From a virus, in IMG/VR virus record IMGVR_UViG_3300037540_000032, positions 1 through 22,028 of that record: a DNA stretch of 22,028 nt; one strand, given 5' to 3'. Numbering within the stretch: the first letter of the stretch is position 1; every line of letters starts with the position of its first letter. The notes under the pieces were generated by a model. It ran no database searches, was not told the DNA's origin, and saw only the letters and a list, made by a program, of their open reading frames with translations. Below are positions 76 through 11,691 of this stretch, piece after piece. The translations under genes and the position numbers were made by a program.

Positions 76-1978
76 GCAAGCAGAAGTTGATGGATTAGTA
101 GATGCTAAAGTAAGTAAGTCTGGCGATACAATGACAGGTGCATTAGTATTATCTGGAGATCCATCAAGTAATCTACACGCTGCTACCAAACAATATGTTG
201 ATAATGAACTATCTACTGGATTGAATAATAAAGTTGATAGGGCAGGTGATGTTATTACTGGTGAAATAGAAATGCAGGATGAAACTCCGATTAATTTCGG
301 ACAGCAATTTTTACTTCACAACAATTCAACAGATCAAAGTCTTGATTTTGTTGCTAATCCTCCTGTTATGGCTACGGCTAAAATGATTCCATATCATGTT
401 GATATTGTTGATAGTAATAATATAAAAACTTGGGTGTCTATAAACACCGGATTCACATTACGAGAAGATAATGTTTATTCAACCGATAAAGTATCAAATT
501 ATACTTCTAATATCTATTCGAGGAATGTAGTACATATGAAACATTGTATTGATGGTCCATATGTATTTTCTATTAATTACGATAGAGGTATCAGTCTTTT
601 AAAGCTTCAAAATGATGGAAGTTTTACATTATTATTATATGAAAGATATCCGGGCACATCGGGAACAACAGATAACATATTTAACGTTGCAGTGGATAAG
701 ACACGAAAACATTTTTATTTTGGATCATATCTCGCTGGTGGAATGGGACGAGTAGATTATTCAGATGAAGGAAATATTACAATACGGACATTAGATGAGA
801 GTGATGGGTTCCTCGACGAACAAATTGGATATGTTTATCGTAATGGTTTTGCGCTGTGTGGGGATTGGTTATATTATACAAGATATGGTAGTTATTATCC
901 TGATGTTTACAGATGGAATGTTGTTACAGAATTAAATGAAGCAATATCTGTTGAAGCTTCTACTGGAGCCGGCGAAAATCTTAGATTTGGTTATATTATG
1001 AATGGGTGGCAGGAGCATAACGATAGATTATGGATACTCTGTCAATATGGAGGTGTGCGTCTTATAACAGGATCATCTACTGTAACCCCAAAACATTTTT
1101 GGATGAATACCGGACTTTATTCTTCCAATGATTGTCATACATATTTGGCGGCAGAAGACCCAGGCAATGAAAATCATGTGTGGTTAGGTGGATGGTATGG
1201 AAGATGGGCTAAATTTGATATAACAGATGTTATTAGTGGAGCATCTTCTGCTCCCACAAAAATTCAAGATGGGACACAATCTGTAAGTGGGAATTTTGGA
1301 TATTCATATGGTTATAATTTTGATTATCTTACACCCGTATTTACAGATGACGATACGGGGATTGTCGTATGTGGTATATATGAATCGGTTGGGGGTGGAT
1401 GGTTTGATCCGGATAATGGAGAGTTTGTTGGAAAAAGTCGTGGTTTTATGCAAAGTACATTGAAGAATGATGATGAGCGATTTCCATATTATCCAGATAG
1501 TGCAGGTAATCCGTTTCAAGCAACAAGCTCAGCCGGGTGTGGAGCGTGGACAAAATCTGAAGATGGAACCGATTATTTTATAGCATACGGTTACGGTACG
1601 AATAACGATATTTTTAGCTTTAGTAAAAATATTCACGCACTTGCAACAAGTGGATATGTTACGTTTGGTGATTATCAATTACCAGGACAAGAAAATGTGA
1701 GTGCTGTTAAAGTTAATGATGTTGCAACATCATTAAATGTCCCCAATGGATGTAGTGCAACTATAGATGTTTCTAATGATGGTGGAACAACTTGGCATAA
1801 TTACGATTGGCAAAACGAGGAGACTTTTGTATTTCCCGATATATACCATAATACCGTTAGAGTTAGATTTAATCTTAATGGATTGGTGAATAAAGCACCA
1901 TACTGGCAAAACAATGGATTCCCAACAGTAACAATGATAGATGAAAGAGTGTATTCAGAAACGCTTGAACTCGCGTAA
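2..1978 (+). CDS. Tail fibre/adhesin protein, 5'-truncated by the window edge
   Basis: The reading frame is open from base 2, so the Met at 131 is internal and the true start lies upstream. The N-terminal visible part is made of short fibre repeats: an HTHVEIDITDLDKYTQ segment, then SGDTMTGALVLSGDP followed by AATKQYVDNEL, the DTMTG/KxYVD pattern of phage fibre shafts. From about base 400 the protein changes to a long aromatic- and glycine-rich region with many short beta-strand-like segments (for example FYFGSYLAGGMGRVDY and HVWLGGWYGRWAKFDI), which looks like a propeller-like receptor or glycan-binding domain; that fold is my inference. It is followed by the second fibre gene after 15 bases (AGAGGTT precedes that ATG). 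It is probably a virion adhesin. I am sure of the tail-fibre class, not of which T4 fibre it corresponds to. Confidence 0.8.
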   Translation, partial: HLLTNKTDLGHTHVEIDITDLDKYTQAEVDGLVDAKVSKSGDTMTGALVLSGDPSSNLHAATKQYVDNELSTGLNNKVDRAGDVITGEIEMQDETPINFGQQFLLHNNSTDQSLDFVANPPVMATAKMIPYHVDIVDSNNIKTWVSINTGFTLREDNVYSTDKVSNYTSNIYSRNVVHMKHCIDGPYVFSINYDRGISLLKLQNDGSFTLLLYERYPGTSGTTDNIFNVAVDKTRKHFYFGSYLAGGMGRVDYSDEGNITIRTLDESDGFLDEQIGYVYRNGFALCGDWLYYTRYGSYYPDVYRWNVVTELNEAISVEASTGAGENLRFGYIMNGWQEHNDRLWILCQYGGVRLITGSSTVTPKHFWMNTGLYSSNDCHTYLAAEDPGNENHVWLGGWYGRWAKFDITDVISGASSAPTKIQDGTQSVSGNFGYSYGYNFDYLTPVFTDDDTGIVVCGIYESVGGGWFDPDNGEFVGKSRGFMQSTLKNDDERFPYYPDSAGNPFQATSSAGCGAWTKSEDGTDYFIAYGYGTNNDIFSFSKNIHALATSGYVTFGDYQLPGQENVSAVKVNDVATSLNVPNGCSATIDVSNDGGTTWHNYDWQNEETFVFPDIYHNTVRVRFNLNGLVNKAPYWQNNGFPTVTMIDERVYSETLELA

Positions 1979-1993
1979 AGAGGTTGAACCCAA

Positions 1994-4390
1994 ATGGCTA
2001 AATTAAAAGAAACAAGTGTTGCCGGGAATCTTACTGTTACAGGCGAGGTGGATGCCACTACTGGATTTAGGTGGGGTGGGCAATCGCTTGATGAAAGATA
2101 TGATAATCGTTATATAAATGCATCTGGTGATACAATGACTGGTAATCTAGTTATTGCAAGTGCTGCTACTTTAACTATAGATAAAGGTGCTAATTTTGAT
2201 TGGCTGGGGACAACCATTAGTTCTGTAATCGATTTAGATGATTATAACTCTACTGTTATGTTGAATAACTATAACGCTGGTTCAAACTTTACTAATAGAC
2301 CAACAGGCACAGATTATGGATCAGTAATTGCATTTGGTGGTGGATACGCAAATATATCCCTTCAATTATTTAATGATATAAATCATAGTAACAGCGATGG
2401 ATCTGAGTTATACTTTCGTGCTTTAAATGGTACGGGGTGGCATACGTGGAGTAAAATTTTAACTGATTTGAATTTTGATAGTGTTACTGGTGGTCCATAC
2501 TTACCACTTACTGGTGGAACACTAACAGGAGCATTAGTATTACCCGGAGATCCAGGTGCTGATGATGAAGCCGCTAGAAAGAAGTATGTTGATGATGAAG
2601 TATCTAATCATACTCATTTAGAAATAGATATAACCGATCTTGACAAATATACACAAGCAGAAGTAGATGCTTTAGTCGCTGGTGCTAAAATGCCGGATGG
2701 TACATTAGATGGTCAATTATTAAGATGGGAATCTGATACTGCTTCATGGGATGGTATTTCAGATGTAGTTGTTGATGATAATGGTGCTCTTTTAATTGGT
2801 AATACGAGCAGTACCCATATGTCAACAGCAGATGCAATGAATCTTGTTGTTCTTGGTAATATAGCTATTACTGATATTGATTTACCCTCGTCAACCATTG
2901 CGTCCAGGATGGTAGGAACATTAGAAGCTCGTCCACCTAGACATTCTGTTAAAATTCTTGCTGATAGTGGATATGACGGTGACGCAATCACTGATGCTAA
3001 TGGATATTTTCCAAATGTATCCGGTGAGGCTGATGTTGCTGGGTTTGATAATCATACTCTTTTCACGTATGCTGATGTTGTAACAGCACTTGATGGAGTT
3101 GGTGGTAGACTTCCAACTTTAGAAGAATTGCGTGCTGGAGCAGGTAAAGGATCTGGGCAGTCCTATGATACAGAATATTTGTGGACTCAAACTAAAGCAG
3201 GACATAATAAAGTTTGGGTTGCGGCAGGTTCTGACACGGATGCTAAAGAACCAATTGCGGTAAGTCTTACAGATAGTTATAGGGCTCGTGTTTTTTGGGA
3301 TGTAAGTAAAGCCAATCTTTCTGTTTATTATGATAATAGTGGTAGATTAAGAACAAAAGAATTACGAGCAGAACACACCGATGGATTGAAATTATTTGGT
3401 GAAGCTGGTGATGGAATATTTGTTGAAGATACTGGTAATGTCGGTATAAAGAATGTTGCACCAAGTGTTGAACTTGATGTTACTGGAAGTATAAACGCAA
3501 GTACTGATATTACTGCGGTTAACGAAGTACAAGCTGGAAGTCATTTACTTACTAATAAAACAGATTTAGGACATACCCATGTAGAAATAGATATAACCGA
3601 TCTTGACAAATATACACAGAATGAAATAGATTCAAGTCAAGCAACACAAGATAATAGATTGACTACATTAGAGGCAGACACTCATCCTGGCAGAACAGAT
3701 AATCCGCATGGAGTAACTGCTGTTCAGGTAGATGCTTATACCCAATCACAAGTAGATTCATTGATTTCTGGTATTGATGTTGGTGGAGTATCAACAGATT
3801 CTAATAACCTTGCTGAATTAGGAACTGATAGTAAGATATGGGTTCCAAGTACCAAAGTACCAATTCCAGTATGGGAGAAGAACTTTAACGATGAAACATT
3901 TACTTCATATGAGTTCCTTGGCATTGAACCCAATCACGATTATAAACTAATAGTCTCTGGGTTTGTGGGCGATACAAACTTCGCAACAGATTTGAATTTA
4001 CAATTCATAACAGCAAATGGTCTTGAAGATAGTACAAAGTATAGATTTATGACATTAATGGCGGGTTCTGGTCCAGGCAATAATGAAGTATATAGCGGAT
4101 ATTATAGTAGTCAAGATCATTTCCTATTGATGAAGTTAGCTTATACCTTTGGTTGTGCAGGAGAGTTCTTGGTTGGATTGAGCCAGAATATGATTAAATC
4201 ATCAGCCATAAATGGTCAATCTTCCAGTTGGGAAACGGGCGGTGGCTATCATACTTTGACTATTGGCGGATTTTATATTGATTCTCTTGGAACTTTACCC
4301 GTTACTGGATTGAGATTAAGTAGGGGAACCACCACTTCTACAACCGTAAAGACTGGAAGATTACAATGGATTAGAATGCCAAGGATGTAA
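1994..4390 (+). CDS. Tail fibre/adhesin with pyocin-knob-like and Lcl/DUF1566-like domains
   Basis: A 798-residue modular virion fibre. Residues 1-54 hold a short N-terminal part ending in a SGDTMTGNLVI repeat. Residues about 78-157 resemble a pyocin-knob domain: a DLDDYN opening, NRPTG at 101-105, QLFND, then WHTWSK. Residues 170-225 are shaft repeats (LTGALVLPGDP, KKYVDDEV, DITDLDKYTQ). Residues about 325-440 resemble an Lcl/DUF1566-type lectin-like fold, with GRLPTLEEL at 371-379 and SYRARVFW at 428-435. A GNVGIKNVAPSVELDVTGS segment (481-499), another HTHVEIDITDLDKYTQ repeat and a NPHGVTAVQVDAYT motif follow. The last about 170 residues look like a beta-rich tip ending LQWIRMPRM. The start has an AGAGGTT ribosome site. 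The class is secure; domain names are by motif recognition only. Confidence 0.82.
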   Translation: MAKLKETSVAGNLTVTGEVDATTGFRWGGQSLDERYDNRYINASGDTMTGNLVIASAATLTIDKGANFDWLGTTISSVIDLDDYNSTVMLNNYNAGSNFTNRPTGTDYGSVIAFGGGYANISLQLFNDINHSNSDGSELYFRALNGTGWHTWSKILTDLNFDSVTGGPYLPLTGGTLTGALVLPGDPGADDEAARKKYVDDEVSNHTHLEIDITDLDKYTQAEVDALVAGAKMPDGTLDGQLLRWESDTASWDGISDVVVDDNGALLIGNTSSTHMSTADAMNLVVLGNIAITDIDLPSSTIASRMVGTLEARPPRHSVKILADSGYDGDAITDANGYFPNVSGEADVAGFDNHTLFTYADVVTALDGVGGRLPTLEELRAGAGKGSGQSYDTEYLWTQTKAGHNKVWVAAGSDTDAKEPIAVSLTDSYRARVFWDVSKANLSVYYDNSGRLRTKELRAEHTDGLKLFGEAGDGIFVEDTGNVGIKNVAPSVELDVTGSINASTDITAVNEVQAGSHLLTNKTDLGHTHVEIDITDLDKYTQNEIDSSQATQDNRLTTLEADTHPGRTDNPHGVTAVQVDAYTQSQVDSLISGIDVGGVSTDSNNLAELGTDSKIWVPSTKVPIPVWEKNFNDETFTSYEFLGIEPNHDYKLIVSGFVGDTNFATDLNLQFITANGLEDSTKYRFMTLMAGSGPGNNEVYSGYYSSQDHFLLMKLAYTFGCAGEFLVGLSQNMIKSSAINGQSSSWETGGGYHTLTIGGFYIDSLGTLPVTGLRLSRGTTTSTTVKTGRLQWIRMPRM
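2621..2669 (+). repeat. Short diverged copy of the fibre repeat
   Basis: This stretch matches bases 43-91 of the first fibre gene with two mismatches and encodes EIDITDLDKYTQAEVD. It sits internally in the second fibre gene, about 0.9 kb before the 75-base copy. Confidence 0.8.
3541..3615 (+). repeat. Direct repeat copy B shared by both fibre genes
   Basis: Identical over 75 bases to the first 75 bases of the window, then diverges (ACACAGAATG here versus ACGCAAGCAG). Both copies are in frame, so homologous exchange between them would swap the downstream receptor domains without breaking the reading frame. Confidence 0.9.
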
Positions 4391-4429
4391 GAACAACGAG
4401 CACAATTAGAAGAATGGCTTACAAGTCTT

Positions 4430-4437
4430 TATAAAAA
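4430..4437 (+). promoter_or_regulatory. Possible weak late-type promoter box upstream of gene 32
   Basis: TATAAAAA matches seven of the eight bases of the T4 late box TATAAATA. T4 gene 32 is known to be transcribed at late times as well as earlier. In AT-rich DNA a seven-of-eight match is weak evidence, so this is only a candidate. Confidence 0.25.
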
Positions 4438-4447
4438 TGCATAAGTG

Positions 4448-4476
4448 TTGAATATTTCTTCTTCTTCTGTTATATT
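4448..4476 (+). promoter_or_regulatory. Sigma70-like extended -10 promoter for gene 32
   Basis: TTGAAT (4448-4453), a 17-base spacer, then TATATT (4471-4476) preceded by TGT, giving an extended -10. Two other intergenic sites in the window have the same plan (6606-6634 and 10205-10233), which raises confidence. The predicted start is near 4483, leaving a leader of about 130 bases before the gene 32 ATG. Confidence 0.65.
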
Positions 4477-4534
4477 AGAATAATGGATTGGAAGAGGATT
4501 TATGCACATAATATGAAAACTATTGTAAATACAT

Positions 4535-4605
4535 ATGCCGACGGGCGGCATTAAATCCCGTAATAACTTAGACAATTCATAGATAACTTTAGATAATTTA
4601 GGAGA
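4535..4605 (+). promoter_or_regulatory. Probable gene 32 translational operator (RNA pseudoknot plus AU-rich leader)
   Basis: Stem 1 pairs AUGCCG (4535-4540) with CGGCAU (4546-4551). Its loop, ACGGG (4541-4545), is complementary to CCCGU (4557-4561), so an H-type pseudoknot can form, with stem 2 being at least CGGG/CCCG. Downstream lies an unstructured AU-rich leader with three related elements: UAACUUAG (4564), UAACUUUAG (4584) and UAAUUUAGG (4594), the last merging with the AGGAGA ribosome site (4600-4605), nine bases before the ATG. T4 gene 32 is known to be autoregulated by gp32 nucleating on a leader pseudoknot and then binding cooperatively over an AU-rich ribosome site. The layout here matches; the function is inferred. 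Confidence 0.6.
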
Positions 4606-4614
4606 AATAGACAA

Positions 4615-5529
4615 ATGAAATCTTTAGAAGAACTCCGCGCTGCATTCAAGCGCAACGAAAATGACGGCTCATCCTCCAGTGGATTCAACAACTACTACCC
4701 TTTCTGGAATCTTGACTTCGGTCAATCCGCAACTATCCGCTTCCTCCCTGATAAGGACGACGATAATCCTCTTGGCTTCTTGGTAGAGAAGCATACCCAT
4801 AACCTGGAAATCAATGGCGAAAAGAAGAAGATTCCTTGCCTTAAGATGTATAACGAGGATTGCCCTATCTGCAAAGTGTCTTCAGACTATTACAAGTCAG
4901 GAGATGAGGATAACGGAAAAAAGTATTGGAAGAAAAGGACTTACATCGCACAAGCACTCATCATAGACGATCCAATCGATCCAAGGGATGGGGAGGAATC
5001 CCAAGAAGGAGAAGTGCGATACATCTCTATGGGGTATCAACTCTACAACGTAGTAAAAGAAGCGTTTGAGTCTGGTGATCTCGATGAAATCCCCTTTGCA
5101 TACAAGGGTGGTTATAATTTTGTTATCAAGAAGACTGAACAAGGCAAGTGGGCAACATATGCTGTTGGTTCCCGTTTTGTTCGTAGGGCAACTGACCTTA
5201 CTGAAGACGAAATTGAATTCGTTGAATCTGAGATGATCGAACTCAATTCATTACTTCCTGATCAACCGGATGCAGAAAAGGTTGAAGGTCAGCTACAAGC
5301 TGCTCTTACCGGACAGGAATACAAGGAAAATAAGGAAGAAGTCGATACACCTCGGAAAGAGCTTGATGAAGAAGACACAAAGGTGACATCAGTCCGAAAT
5401 AAGAAGGTCGAAAAGATTCTTGAAAAAGAAATCGAAGACGAAAAGGAAGAATCATCTGACGGCGACGACGAATACGATGATGAGGCCGATGAGATCCTTT
5501 CTCGAATCCGTTCACGTAAATCCAAGTAA
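4615..5529 (+). CDS. 32: Single-stranded DNA-binding protein gp32
   Basis: A 304-residue protein, close to T4 gp32 (301). It coats ssDNA cooperatively at replication forks and recombination intermediates and is expected to contact UvsX and UvsY. The N-terminus (LEELRAAFKRNE) is basic like the T4 cooperativity domain. The core carries a zinc site: His62, Cys75, Cys83 and Cys86 (CLKMYNEDCPIC), with the same 12-residue His-Cys spacing as T4 His64-Cys77. Aromatic and basic residues (YYPFWNLDFG; KKYWKKRTYIAQA) fit the ssDNA-binding cleft. From about residue 235 the tail becomes acidic and low-complexity (DGDDEYDDEADE), the protein-interaction tail, and ends in a basic RSRKSK. The ribosome site is AGGAGA. 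Codon use is visibly richer in C-ending codons than in neighbours, consistent with high expression. Confidence 0.93.
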   Translation: MKSLEELRAAFKRNENDGSSSSGFNNYYPFWNLDFGQSATIRFLPDKDDDNPLGFLVEKHTHNLEINGEKKKIPCLKMYNEDCPICKVSSDYYKSGDEDNGKKYWKKRTYIAQALIIDDPIDPRDGEESQEGEVRYISMGYQLYNVVKEAFESGDLDEIPFAYKGGYNFVIKKTEQGKWATYAVGSRFVRRATDLTEDEIEFVESEMIELNSLLPDQPDAEKVEGQLQAALTGQEYKENKEEVDTPRKELDEEDTKVTSVRNKKVEKILEKEIEDEKEESSDGDDEYDDEADEILSRIRSRKSK

Positions 5530-5539
5530 GGAGAAATGA

Positions 5540-6604
5540 ATGAGCTTTATTTCAGATCTTAACAAAGATCTGGAGAAAGCTGGTATAATGGCGGGCTCTG
5601 GTAGCCCGCCAAAATATTGGTTTAGCTCCGGAAACTTTGTACTTAATAAAATCCTATCCGGTTCCTTTATGCGATTCATTCCACAAGGTAGAATCGTTTG
5701 CCTTGCTGGTCCATCTGGAACTGGAAAATCATTTCTTGCAGCTAATGCTGCACGAGAAGCACAAAAGGAAGGAGCATTTGTTGTTCCTATTGATACTGAA
5801 AATGCATTAGATGATGATTTTATGACCGCTGTTGGTGTAGATGTAAAAGATAAGAACTATATGTATGTCCCCGCAAACACTATAGAGGATTGTAAGAAAA
5901 CCGTATCTAAAATCGTTGCTGGATATGAGAGTGAATATGCGGATGATGAAAATGCTCCACGAATGCTTATTCTTATTGATAGTGTCGATATGCTTCTTAG
6001 TGAAGCAGAACAAGAACAATTCAAGAAAGGAATTGTAAAAGGTGATATGGGACAAAGGAATAAGCAACTCAAATCAATGCTTCGATCCTTTGTTCAAGCA
6101 CTCAAGAATCATAATATTTCTATGATTATCACTCATCAAGTCTATAAGAATCAGGATTTGATGAATGGTGAAGGTAACTGGATTGTTGCTGATGCTATCA
6201 AGTATTCACTATCACAAATTGTTATGCTAACTAAATTGAAGCTTAGAGATAAGTCAACAAAGGAAACCACTGGGATTAGAATGAAGTGTGAGGGATATAA
6301 AACCAGATTCACTCGTCCATTCCAGACTGTTACTATTGAGGTTCCTTACGAAGAGGGTATGGACCCTTATAATGGATTGCTTGATGTAGCTGTTGAAATG
6401 GGTATTATCAAGCAAAAAAGTTCTTGGTATACCTATGGTAATAATAAGTTTCAAGCAAAGAATTTTGATTTGAAACTCAAACAGGCAGTCTTAATAGAAT
6501 GTGAAGCACATAGAGAGAAGTTCCTTGAAGCACTTGATGAAGATGAAGAATTGACGCCTCAACAAAGTGCTAAGAAACAAAGAATGTCCAAAATGTCTGT
6601 TTAA
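5540..6604 (+). CDS. uvsX: UvsX recombinase (RecA/Rad51-family)
   Basis: A 354-residue ATP-dependent strand-exchange protein, slightly shorter than T4 UvsX (about 390). Walker A is GPSGTGKS at residues 57-64. The catalytic segment VPIDTENALDDDF (82-94) corresponds to the RecA-family glutamate region. Walker B is MLILIDS at 142-148, followed by SVDML. MIITHQVYKNQD is the conserved segment after the DNA-binding loop, and the C-terminus is acidic then basic (EALDEDEEL, KKQRMSKM). It starts 10 bases after gene 32, with AAGGAGA (5528-5534) spanning the gene 32 stop as ribosome site, so the two are probably co-transcribed. UvsX polymerises on ssDNA, displacing gp32 with help from UvsY, which is encoded about 1.7 kb downstream. 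Family assignment is firm. Confidence 0.93.
   Translation: MSFISDLNKDLEKAGIMAGSGSPPKYWFSSGNFVLNKILSGSFMRFIPQGRIVCLAGPSGTGKSFLAANAAREAQKEGAFVVPIDTENALDDDFMTAVGVDVKDKNYMYVPANTIEDCKKTVSKIVAGYESEYADDENAPRMLILIDSVDMLLSEAEQEQFKKGIVKGDMGQRNKQLKSMLRSFVQALKNHNISMIITHQVYKNQDLMNGEGNWIVADAIKYSLSQIVMLTKLKLRDKSTKETTGIRMKCEGYKTRFTRPFQTVTIEVPYEEGMDPYNGLLDVAVEMGIIKQKSSWYTYGNNKFQAKNFDLKLKQAVLIECEAHREKFLEALDEDEELTPQQSAKKQRMSKMSV
5554..5610 (+). other. Two perfect hairpins flanking an extended -10 inside the start of uvsX
   Basis: AGATCTT (5554-5560) pairs with AAGATCT (5565-5571) around a four-base loop. GGCGGGCT (5590-5597) pairs with AGCCCGCC (5603-5610) around a five-base loop. Between them lies TGGTATAAT (5581-5589), an exact extended -10, but I see no good -35. 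The second stem is very GC-rich for this genome. No U-tract follows, so it is not a standard terminator; it may affect mRNA stability or ribosome entry. Confidence 0.4.
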
Positions 6605-6666: not shown

Positions 6667-7725
6667 ATGAAATCCGCAGAACAATTACTGAAAGACAACT
6701 TGTTAGTCAAGCACTACGCTGGCTCACATGCCTATGGTACTGCTTTGCCTACTTCTGATACAGACTTCAGAGGCATCTTTTGTGCAGACCCTATCAATCT
6801 CCTAACTCCATTCTTCCCTGTTCGAGAAGTGACGGATGTGAACGAGGAAGACACAAAGTACTATGAACTTGCACATTTTATGAAGTTGTGCCTTGATTGT
6901 AATCCGAATATCGTGGAAAGTCTTTGGGTTGATCCTCAAGACATTGTGGACTTGAGTTCTGCTTACACGTATCTTCGCAGACACAGGAAAGAGTTTCTGT
7001 CTAGCAAGATTGCATTTTCCACAACTGGTTATGCAACTGCTCAAATCAAAAGGATCAAAGGGCATAATAAATGGATAAATTCTCCACAAGAAGTGAAAGC
7101 ACCAGAGCAAAAGGACTTTGTGAGTTTGGTTCAATGGTATGGTAATGAGAAAGTAATGCCAAGGGATTTCAAGATGGAAAAGGTTTATAGCTATGCTCAT
7201 CTTGTTTCTTATGGTGGGGACATCTTTGGTGTCTATTCTCATATTGATCGCCAGACTTATAACCTGGAGGATGGTGCACTCAAGACTCAGTATGATGAAG
7301 AGGAAAAGCATGAACTTGGGGTTCCTGTTTGCATCATCAAGTTCAATAGGAATGAATGGAGACAAGCAAAAGACACTTGGAAGAACTATTGGACTTGGAA
7401 AGAAAACCGAAATAAAGCACGTAATGAACTAGAGGAAGACTTCGGTTACGACACGAAGCACGGAATGCATTGTGTGCGTTTGATGCGAATGGGTTTGGAA
7501 GCTTTGCGTGATGGTGAGATCATTGTAAAGCGGCCTGATGCTAAAGAATTATTGAGCATTCGGAATGGTGCGTGGTCTTATGAAGAGATGGTTGAATATG
7601 CTGAATATATGGATAATGAGATTCGGCATGTTTGGTATAAGAAGACTGATTTGCCCAAAAAGCCGGATATCAAGTTTGCTTCTAAAGTGCTGATGGAGGT
7701 GCAGGAGATGGTTTGGAATAAATAA
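6667..7725 (+). CDS. Predicted nucleotidyltransferase (Pol-beta superfamily, RlaP/COG3541-like)
   Basis: A 352-residue protein with the hallmark of minimal Pol-beta-type nucleotidyltransferases: GSHAYGT at 19-25 (the GS motif) followed by SDTDFRG at 30-36, which supplies the first two metal-binding aspartates (Asp31, Asp33). The GSHxYGT...SDxDxRG form is typical of the family annotated as predicted nucleotidyltransferase/RlaP (PF10127-like), found in many large phages and often discussed in RNA repair. Further recognisable segments are ELAHFMKLCLDCNPNIVESLW (about 68-88) and AYTYLRRHRKEFLS. The C-terminal part is helical and charged (HVWYKKTDLPKKPD). It has its own strong promoter and an AAGGGC ribosome site. 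Substrate is unknown; it could transfer a nucleotide to RNA, protein or a small molecule. The family call is good, the role is open. Confidence 0.8.
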   Translation: MKSAEQLLKDNLLVKHYAGSHAYGTALPTSDTDFRGIFCADPINLLTPFFPVREVTDVNEEDTKYYELAHFMKLCLDCNPNIVESLWVDPQDIVDLSSAYTYLRRHRKEFLSSKIAFSTTGYATAQIKRIKGHNKWINSPQEVKAPEQKDFVSLVQWYGNEKVMPRDFKMEKVYSYAHLVSYGGDIFGVYSHIDRQTYNLEDGALKTQYDEEEKHELGVPVCIIKFNRNEWRQAKDTWKNYWTWKENRNKARNELEEDFGYDTKHGMHCVRLMRMGLEALRDGEIIVKRPDAKELLSIRNGAWSYEEMVEYAEYMDNEIRHVWYKKTDLPKKPDIKFASKVLMEVQEMVWNK

Positions 7726-10743: not shown

Positions 10744-11120
10744 TGACAACAAAAAGAAAAAGAAAGCCGTCTATAAAAAAGCAAACAATTGCAGAATTTA
10801 GAGCATGGATAGAAGGGGTGGAAGAACTTCAACCAGAAGACTGGAGTCCTGATGCCTCACAATGGGTTCTTATTCGTAATAGAATAGACAAGATTATTGA
10901 AGGAGATGTACCACTTCGACCCAATTTAGTTCCACGTTATCCTAATAATCCCCAGGGATTTATACCACCTGCACCTCCTGCTGGCGGAATACCGGCGGTT
11001 GCGCCAGAGAATACGGATATAAGTGATGCTGCGGCTAAGTTATTGAAGGGTGGTACTAAAGAGAATCCAGCAAAAACGCCTGAAATCACTGATGGAAATT
11101 TCAACAGTCCATTCGCATAA
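10743..11120 (+). CDS. Unidentified small protein with proline-rich linker
   Basis: A 125-residue protein starting at the TAATG overlap with the previous gene. The first residues are strongly basic (TTKRKRKPSIKKQTI). A compact helical part follows: AEFRAWIEGVEELQPEDWSP then ASQWVLIRNRIDKI (about 17-52), which has the look of a conserved motif. The second half is a proline/alanine-rich linker (NNPQGFIPPAPPAGGIPAVAP) and a polar tail ending NFNSPFA. It is probably a small cytoplasmic or DNA-associated adaptor, which is only a guess from composition. Its end overlaps the start of the DnaE-like fragment. Confidence 0.7.
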   Translation: MTTKRKRKPSIKKQTIAEFRAWIEGVEELQPEDWSPDASQWVLIRNRIDKIIEGDVPLRPNLVPRYPNNPQGFIPPAPPAGGIPAVAPENTDISDAAAKLLKGGTKENPAKTPEITDGNFNSPFA

Positions 11121-11691
11121 GACTATATTAAGTGATAGAACACTTTGGTTCGATGGTGATTCATCATTTGAACCGAGTGCTATTGTAAGCATAATATCTT
11201 CATGTAGTTCTGATGGAAATGATATTAAAAACATATATGTTAATGTATTAACCAAAGAAATTCAAGAATATAACAGATTGGTATCAGATGATGAGCAGAT
11301 ATTAGTAAAAGAAGAAGTTCGTTCATTAGATGTATCTTGGAATATTCCAGAGGAATATAAATTAATAAACGTTGAATCATATATTCTTGATAAGTTTTTT
11401 AAAGAAATTAATGACAATTTATGGGGTGATAAAAACGGTAAGGAGACTCCGTACTTTGCACGTAGAGCAGATAGAGTTTCTAAAGAATTAGCGCTTTTTA
11501 AAAAATTCCAATTATTTGATGTAGTTAAGACTCTAATTTATATCATAAATAAGTTTGAATCTGAAAATATCGTATGGGGTGTAGGGAGAGGCAGTAGTGT
11601 TAGTTCCTATATACTATATCTAATAGGAGTTCATGATATTGACAGTGTTAAATTTAATTTAGATGTGAGAGAATTCCTTCATACATCATAG
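11092..11691 (+). CDS. DnaE/C-family polymerase palm-like fragment (GS-motif half)
   Basis: From the ATG at 11092 this gives 199 residues; a GTG at 11050 would add 14, with deeper overlap of the previous gene. Neither start has a strong ribosome site. The C-terminal 75 residues resemble the PolIII-alpha palm: KELALFKKFQLFDVVKTLIY, then WGVGRGSSVSSYILYLIGVH (162-181), DIDSVKFNLDVREFL (182-196). In bacterial DnaE the matching text is [34 protein letters not shown], followed directly by the catalytic PDFDVDF. Here the ORF stops right after REFLHTS, so the catalytic aspartates are absent. They appear in a separate ORF at 21722. The N-terminal about 120 residues are not recognised and no PHP-type motif is visible. 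It is probably half of a split DnaE-like protein; whether it is active is unknown. Confidence 0.6.
   Translation: MEISTVHSHKTILSDRTLWFDGDSSFEPSAIVSIISSCSSDGNDIKNIYVNVLTKEIQEYNRLVSDDEQILVKEEVRSLDVSWNIPEEYKLINVESYILDKFFKEINDNLWGDKNGKETPYFARRADRVSKELALFKKFQLFDVVKTLIYIINKFESENIVWGVGRGSSVSSYILYLIGVHDIDSVKFNLDVREFLHTS

Follow-up and report, generated by a model that had tools for sequence, protein, structure and literature searches.

A conserved H-type pseudoknot and repeat tract in the gene 32 leader of a T4-like phage form a predicted autoregulatory operator

The question raised by this locus is how a DNA-coating protein that is indifferent to sequence picks out one mRNA. The gene 32 pseudoknot is the textbook example of a protein repressing its own translation. 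In T4 and RB69 the knot and the UUAAA repeats that accompany it are required for autogenous repression, the footprints of gp32 extend from the knot toward the start codon, and the knot nucleates gp32 while the less structured repeats let its binding spread cooperatively across the ribosome site (PMC535899; PMC3014915); the RB69 operator has been probed and footprinted by experiment (PMC535899). In this study, we analyze a stretch of 22,028 nucleotides of viral DNA (IMG/VR record IMGVR_UViG_3300037540_000032, positions 1 to 22,028; hereafter, the window), in which a first-pass annotation had proposed a pseudoknot and an AU-rich operator ahead of a gene 32 homologue. We put at roughly 0.8 the probability that the knot and the repeat tract following it act together as the translational operator of gene 32, through which gp32 would repress its own synthesis.

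The identity of the gene is secure, with the 304-aa open reading frame matching phrog_1192 (E 3e-39) and the Pfam gp32 family (44.6 bits, where the cut-off is 26.8). Residues H62, C75, C83 and C86 are invariant in the window's clade and have a zinc-site-like spacing, resembling that of the T4 zinc ligands. Every part of the proposed knot was found exactly where it had been placed, namely the stem 1 arms AUGCCG and CGGCAU, the loop ACGGG and the partner CCCGU (Table 1), and the element runs from -80 to -54 relative to the gene 32 start at 4615, matching the 54 to 80 nt that had been claimed. The whole loop of the stem 1 hairpin (ACGGG, 4541-4545) has its full complement in CCCGT (4557-4561). 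Since pairing of all five loop bases would leave a loop 1 of zero length, which is sterically doubtful in known knot geometry, the likelier role of A4541 is that of a single-base loop 1 above a 4-bp stem 2, its pairing with U being optional.

Table 1. Features in and around the gene 32 leader of the window
Feature	Position	Strand	Basis or remark
Possible sigma70-type promoter TTGAAT-N17-TATATT, TG before -10	4448-4476	+	weak
TGTAAATA, degenerate match to T4-type late promoter TATAAATA, just 5' of knot	4524-4531	+	weak
Stem 1, 5' arm AUGCCG	4535-4540	+	sequence, covariation, chance scan
A, probable one-base loop 1 (or A-U pair with 4561)	4541	+	A in 30/33 knots
Stem 2, 5' arm CGGG	4542-4545	+	sequence, covariation, chance scan
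Stem 1, 3' arm CGGCAU	4546-4551	+	sequence, covariation, chance scan
Loop 3 UAAAU, short form	4552-4556	+	relatives: 7-26 nt, mostly with embedded hairpin
Stem 2, 3' arm CCCG(U)	4557-4561	+	sequence, covariation, chance scan
Repeat 1 UAGACAA	4569-4575	+	motif count
Repeat 2 UAGAUAA	4580-4586	+	motif count
Repeat 3 UAGAUAA	4590-4596	+	motif count
UAGGAG, partial repeat fused to Shine-Dalgarno AGGAG	4599-4604	+	sequence
Repeat 4 UAGACAA, adjoining start codon	4608-4614	+	motif count
Gene 32 homologue, single-stranded DNA binding protein, 304 aa	4615-5529	+	phrog_1192, Pfam gp32
UvsX-like recombinase, next gene downstream	5540-6604	+	ORF list, phrog/Pfam profiles

Within the window such a structure is rarely met. 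Knots of exact form (a perfect 6-bp stem, a 5-nt loop and a full loop complement within 20 nt) occur once on the + strand, in the gene 32 leader, and twice in weaker versions on the - strand. Under strict scoring the leader knot ranks first over both strands of the 22 kb, and 0 of 4000 dinucleotide shuffles of the leader (4391-4614) score as well. The stable portion of the predicted fold is stem 1 alone, the tract beyond it being weakly folded and unpaired in the centroid. Reading the hairpin as a terminator was rejected: the + strand has no U-run, and the one terminator-like match, a weak one, lies on the - strand, whereas the genes flanking the leader are on the + strand.

Searches of viral contigs for gp32 returned 28 and 80 loci, to which further loci were added later, and the same knot topology written in other letters was found in relatives whose gp32 is about 40-60% identical. 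These leaders were compared by a strict scan that demanded a stem 1 of at least 5 bp and -6 kcal/mol, a stem 2 of 4-7 bp and -6.5 kcal/mol, a loop 1 of 0-1 nt and a loop 3 of 3-30 nt that had to contain a hairpin if longer than 14 nt. Among the 61 non-redundant leaders of the window's clade, 39 match, against 6/61 of their reverse complements and 421 of 12200 shuffles (3.5%). Elsewhere in these loci the scan matches 22 of 175 upstream regions of other ORFs and 118 of 1011 downstream tiles; at a score of -18 or better the corresponding numbers are 30/61 for the gene 32 leaders, 4/175 and 16/1011. Leaders fetched after the thresholds had been fixed gave 8/12 matches in sense and 0/12 in antisense; among the eight, two come from duplicates of a single leader whose knot is weak and doubtful, and of the 12 leaders two are short. 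The remaining 22 of the 61 clade leaders fail the strict scan, including whole subclades (L042/L052/L055/L056/L060 and L046/L114), so that the knot is dispensable. Five of these knot-less relatives (L042, L052, L055, L056 and L114) have in common a hairpin with a CGTTG-containing loop upstream of gp32, which is possibly a replacement operator.

It might be argued that the hairpin exists by itself and that its loop finds a complement by coincidence, and single-strand folding programs do give the hairpin alone, knots being outside their model. In a test made blind to the partner, the strongest hairpin with a 5-nt loop was chosen first in each leader and a complement of loop bases 2-5 was then sought; it was found within 40 nt downstream in 31/48 leaders, against 4.7 expected, and upstream in 4/48. 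Moreover, all five pairs of stem 2 covary, in contradiction to coincidence, and we regard the hairpin-only reading as almost certainly wrong.

The first-pass annotation had named compensatory changes in both stems as the check to be made, and the relatives provide them in abundance. When the whole knot was aligned with MAFFT by sequence alone, the 3' arm of stem 2 was misaligned wherever loop 3 varied in length, and pairs were therefore counted in 33 fixed-register cores. In these, 98.1% of the cells are paired, a percentage inflated by the selection of the cores for pairing, and two-sided changes occur at all 11 pairs (128 double-change cells); the covariation score is 0.979, compared with 0.235 for shuffled and 0.11-0.21 for slid pairings. 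Because of that selection, it is the partner-blind, antisense, slid and held-out controls that bear the argument. The freedom of the letters is evident in knots such as AGGCTG-AGAGG-CAGCCT...CCTCT (L005), CAGGTG-AAGGG-CATCTG...CCCTT (L045), CCGGCG-ACACG-CGTCGG...CGTGT (L053), CCATTG-ATGGG-CAATGG...CCCAT (L062) and GCTGTG-ACGGG-CATAGC...CCCGT (L072). At one homologous position stem 2 reads AGAGG/CCUCU, AGAAG/CUUCU or AGACG/CGUCU; in the homologous group L088/L093/L104 one of its pairs is G-C, A-U or C-G, and L142 represents a G-U state intermediate between AUGGG/CCCAU and AUAGG/CCUAU. On this comparative evidence, the gene 32 leader holds a real and conserved H-type pseudoknot RNA element.

Two details are nearly constant. 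The pair that closes the loop of stem 1 is G-C in 31/33 knots, and the first loop base is A in 30/33, facing U in 27 and A in three (L001, L006 and L081); two-sided changes at this position are seen in 3 of the 33 knots, with the A able to pair with U in the 27. The knots come in two forms. Firstly, a short form with a loop 3 of 5-17 nt and no hairpin is found in the window and in relatives of the L062, L069, L106 and L072 type. Secondly, a long form has a loop 3 of 15-26 nt with a small hairpin directly preceding the 3' arm of stem 2 (L001, L002, L004, L005, L041, L053, L088 and others); most relatives carry this extra hairpin, and the window belongs to the short form. H-type knots that carry a loop 3 hairpin are known among riboswitches, and the long form has a topology like that of known knotted riboswitch classes, which invites the thought that the knot binds another regulator, be it a small molecule or some other protein of phage or host. 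However, Rfam at its curated score matched no family in the window or in 15 loci, the letters of the knot are nearly unconstrained besides the loop 1 A and the G-C closing pair, unlike a small-molecule pocket, and the knot precedes the gene of a single-stranded DNA binding protein whose T4 relative binds such a knot. A regulator other than gp32 is, in our judgment, very unlikely.

The leader between the knot and the start codon is occupied by repeats. Three UAACUUAG-like elements had been described there, and these are indeed present at 4564, 4584 and 4594, with the last running into AGGAG; TAGAYAA proved to be the cleaner unit. The units begin at 4569, 4580, 4590, 4599 (the UAGGAG) and 4608, with spacings of 11, 10, 9 and 9 nt. 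Four copies of TAGAYAA fall in the 53-nt tract where 0.13 are expected, and 0 of 5000 shuffles get to four, although this count overstates the significance, the motif having been picked after the sequence was seen. No UUAAA occurs in the window tract between knot and start, and it is plausible that the UAGAYAA repeats are a functional substitute for it. Across the clade UAGAYAA is enriched (23 against 4.1), with many members having other A-rich elements; the periodicity of the tract is weak overall, and we consequently claim the fixed spacing of 9-11 nt only in the window, in L066 and in a few other leaders. The tract of L169 (TAACTTTAGACAACTTAGACAACTTTAGACAGGAGTAGACA) is almost identical to that of the window, and tandem units of UAGAYAA type, 9-10 nt apart and 5' of the gp32 Shine-Dalgarno, are also present in the L169 and L089 leaders. 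In L066 the last 80 nt before the position 1992 hold six TAGATA units at intervals of 10 nt (autocorrelation z 5.1); this leader has no strict knot, as if the units can suffice by themselves.

With regard to transcription, many relatives have a strong TTGACA-N16/17-TATnnT promoter whose -10 box ends 4-8 nt 5' of stem 1 (L045, L057, L058, L062, L103, L106 and others), so that their mRNA would start at the knot. An intact NATAAATA, the T4-type late promoter, is found no more than 300 nt upstream of the start in 52/61 clade leaders. The window has no strong promoter adjoining the knot, and sigma70-type matches in its region number 2, against 3.1 expected by chance, and are accordingly weak. The predicted placement of the transcript start at the knot in many relatives would suit an element that chiefly stabilises the 5' end, capping the mRNA and slowing 5'-initiated decay with no need of gp32 binding, and in T4 the gene 32 mRNA undergoes a processing cut at -71, close to where the knot begins on its 5' side (PMC3014915). 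A plain hairpin would be enough for a cap, yet compensatory changes have preserved stem 2 and the loop 1 A; of the genes tested in these loci, it is gene 32 to which the element is specific; a cap leaves the repeat tract up to the ribosome site unexplained; and the window has no strong promoter next to the knot. It is thus unlikely that stabilisation of the 5' end is the main function.

The reading that we favor is autogenous repression. The leader would fold into an H-type pseudoknot with a stem 1 of 6 bp, a one-base loop 1, a stem 2 of 4-5 bp and a loop 3 of 5 nt; after the knot, a UAGAYAA tract with little structure would continue past the Shine-Dalgarno as far as the AUG. Whenever gp32 is in excess of the available single-stranded DNA, one molecule would bind the knot, others would load cooperatively along the repeats until the ribosome site is covered, and gp32 synthesis would stop. 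The fold, its compensated conservation, its position and the repeats are computed, and the binding of gp32, nucleation, cooperative filling and repression are drawn by analogy with T4 and RB69. That the window element resembles the T4 operator in its working is the best explanation that we can offer, with gp32 binding and repression as its predictions.

The parallel with T4 that the first-pass annotation had drawn holds for the order of the parts, whose dimensions and repeat sequence differ. As in T4 and T2, an H-type knot upstream of gene 32 is followed by AU-rich repeats that lead into the Shine-Dalgarno and the start, and the T4 knot (UGCC-A-GCUAUGA-GGUA-AAGUG-UCAUAGC) has a one-base A loop 1, which is also the probable reading in the window, and the same 5-nt loop 3. 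In contrast, stem 1 has 6 bp in the window and 4-5 in T4 (4 in the same scan), stem 2 has 4-5 bp as opposed to 7, the repeats are UAGAYAA every 9-11 nt and not UUAAA every 5 nt, and the loop 3 hairpin of most window relatives is absent from T4. The RB69-type operator has the same plan as the window and is close to T4 in sequence; the differences from T4 apply to it as well. Among the T4-like leaders scanned, knots of T4 dimensions were found in T4, JK45, Klebsiella phi1 and LQ5; nothing that convinces as a knot was seen in those of Aeromonas 25, an RB49-type phage, KARL-1, a Slopekvirus, KVP40, phiM7, cyanophages and YB07; the RB49 leader has been reported to have no knot (PMC535899; PMC3014915). 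The leaders of RB49-type phages, KVP40 and cyanophages are AU-rich before gp32 like the window but have no strict knot. In the 60 nt before gp32, KVP40 (L127) and P-SSM4 (L130) have periodic repeats of ACAATA/CAATAC type, with lags of 5/10 and 9/18, respectively, and neither has a convincing knot. A set of 23 jumbo-phage leaders (XacN1, RaK2, PA5oct-type and kin), in which the T4 leader was included, gave one strict match.

Whether the control was kept in a distant T4-like phage, as had been suggested, is a matter of descent, and here the claim is weakened: gp32 of the window is 28% identical to that of T4 over 195 aa, and the clades sampled between them are mostly without the knot. When leaders are placed on a quick gp32 tree, the clade of the window has the knot in many members and seems to have lost it several times, and it is absent from the jumbo-phage clades and from most T4-like rows. 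This patchy distribution is compatible with a single origin followed by many losses, and also with two origins. We tentatively raise the idea, on balance a doubtful one, that this large uncultured T4-like/jumbo clade has an operator class of its own, often at the mRNA 5' end and independent of the T-even knot; as read, it would typically be a three-stem knot with a loop 3 hairpin, and in some members UAGAYAA repeats at even spacing. If an independent origin is true, self-control of a single-stranded DNA binding protein through a knotted leader has evolved at least two times.

The gene 32 knot is documented in the open literature for the T-even/RB69 group only (PMC535899; PMC3014915), and we found in open-access literature no report of one outside that group. 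The window very probably presents a self-shut-off switch like that of T4 in a lineage with no apparent earlier description. About 40 divergent, covarying knots, each with its own single-stranded DNA binding protein, offer a natural set for testing mRNA recognition, and with them it could also be tested whether such control is inherited or reinvented. As for the surroundings of the operator, gp32 is preceded by large tail-fibre-like genes (131-4390, then the leader 4391-4614), and in many T4-like phages by gene 59. Just downstream of uvsX, at 6667-7725 of the window, is an RlaP-type RNA-repair nucleotidyltransferase (phrog_388). Further on, a short ORF of 213 aa (11050-11691) has matches to Pfam DNA_pol3_alpha and phrog_11127 over a portion of the NTPase domain of DNA polymerase III alpha, which makes it a DnaE-like fragment amid replication genes of T4 type.
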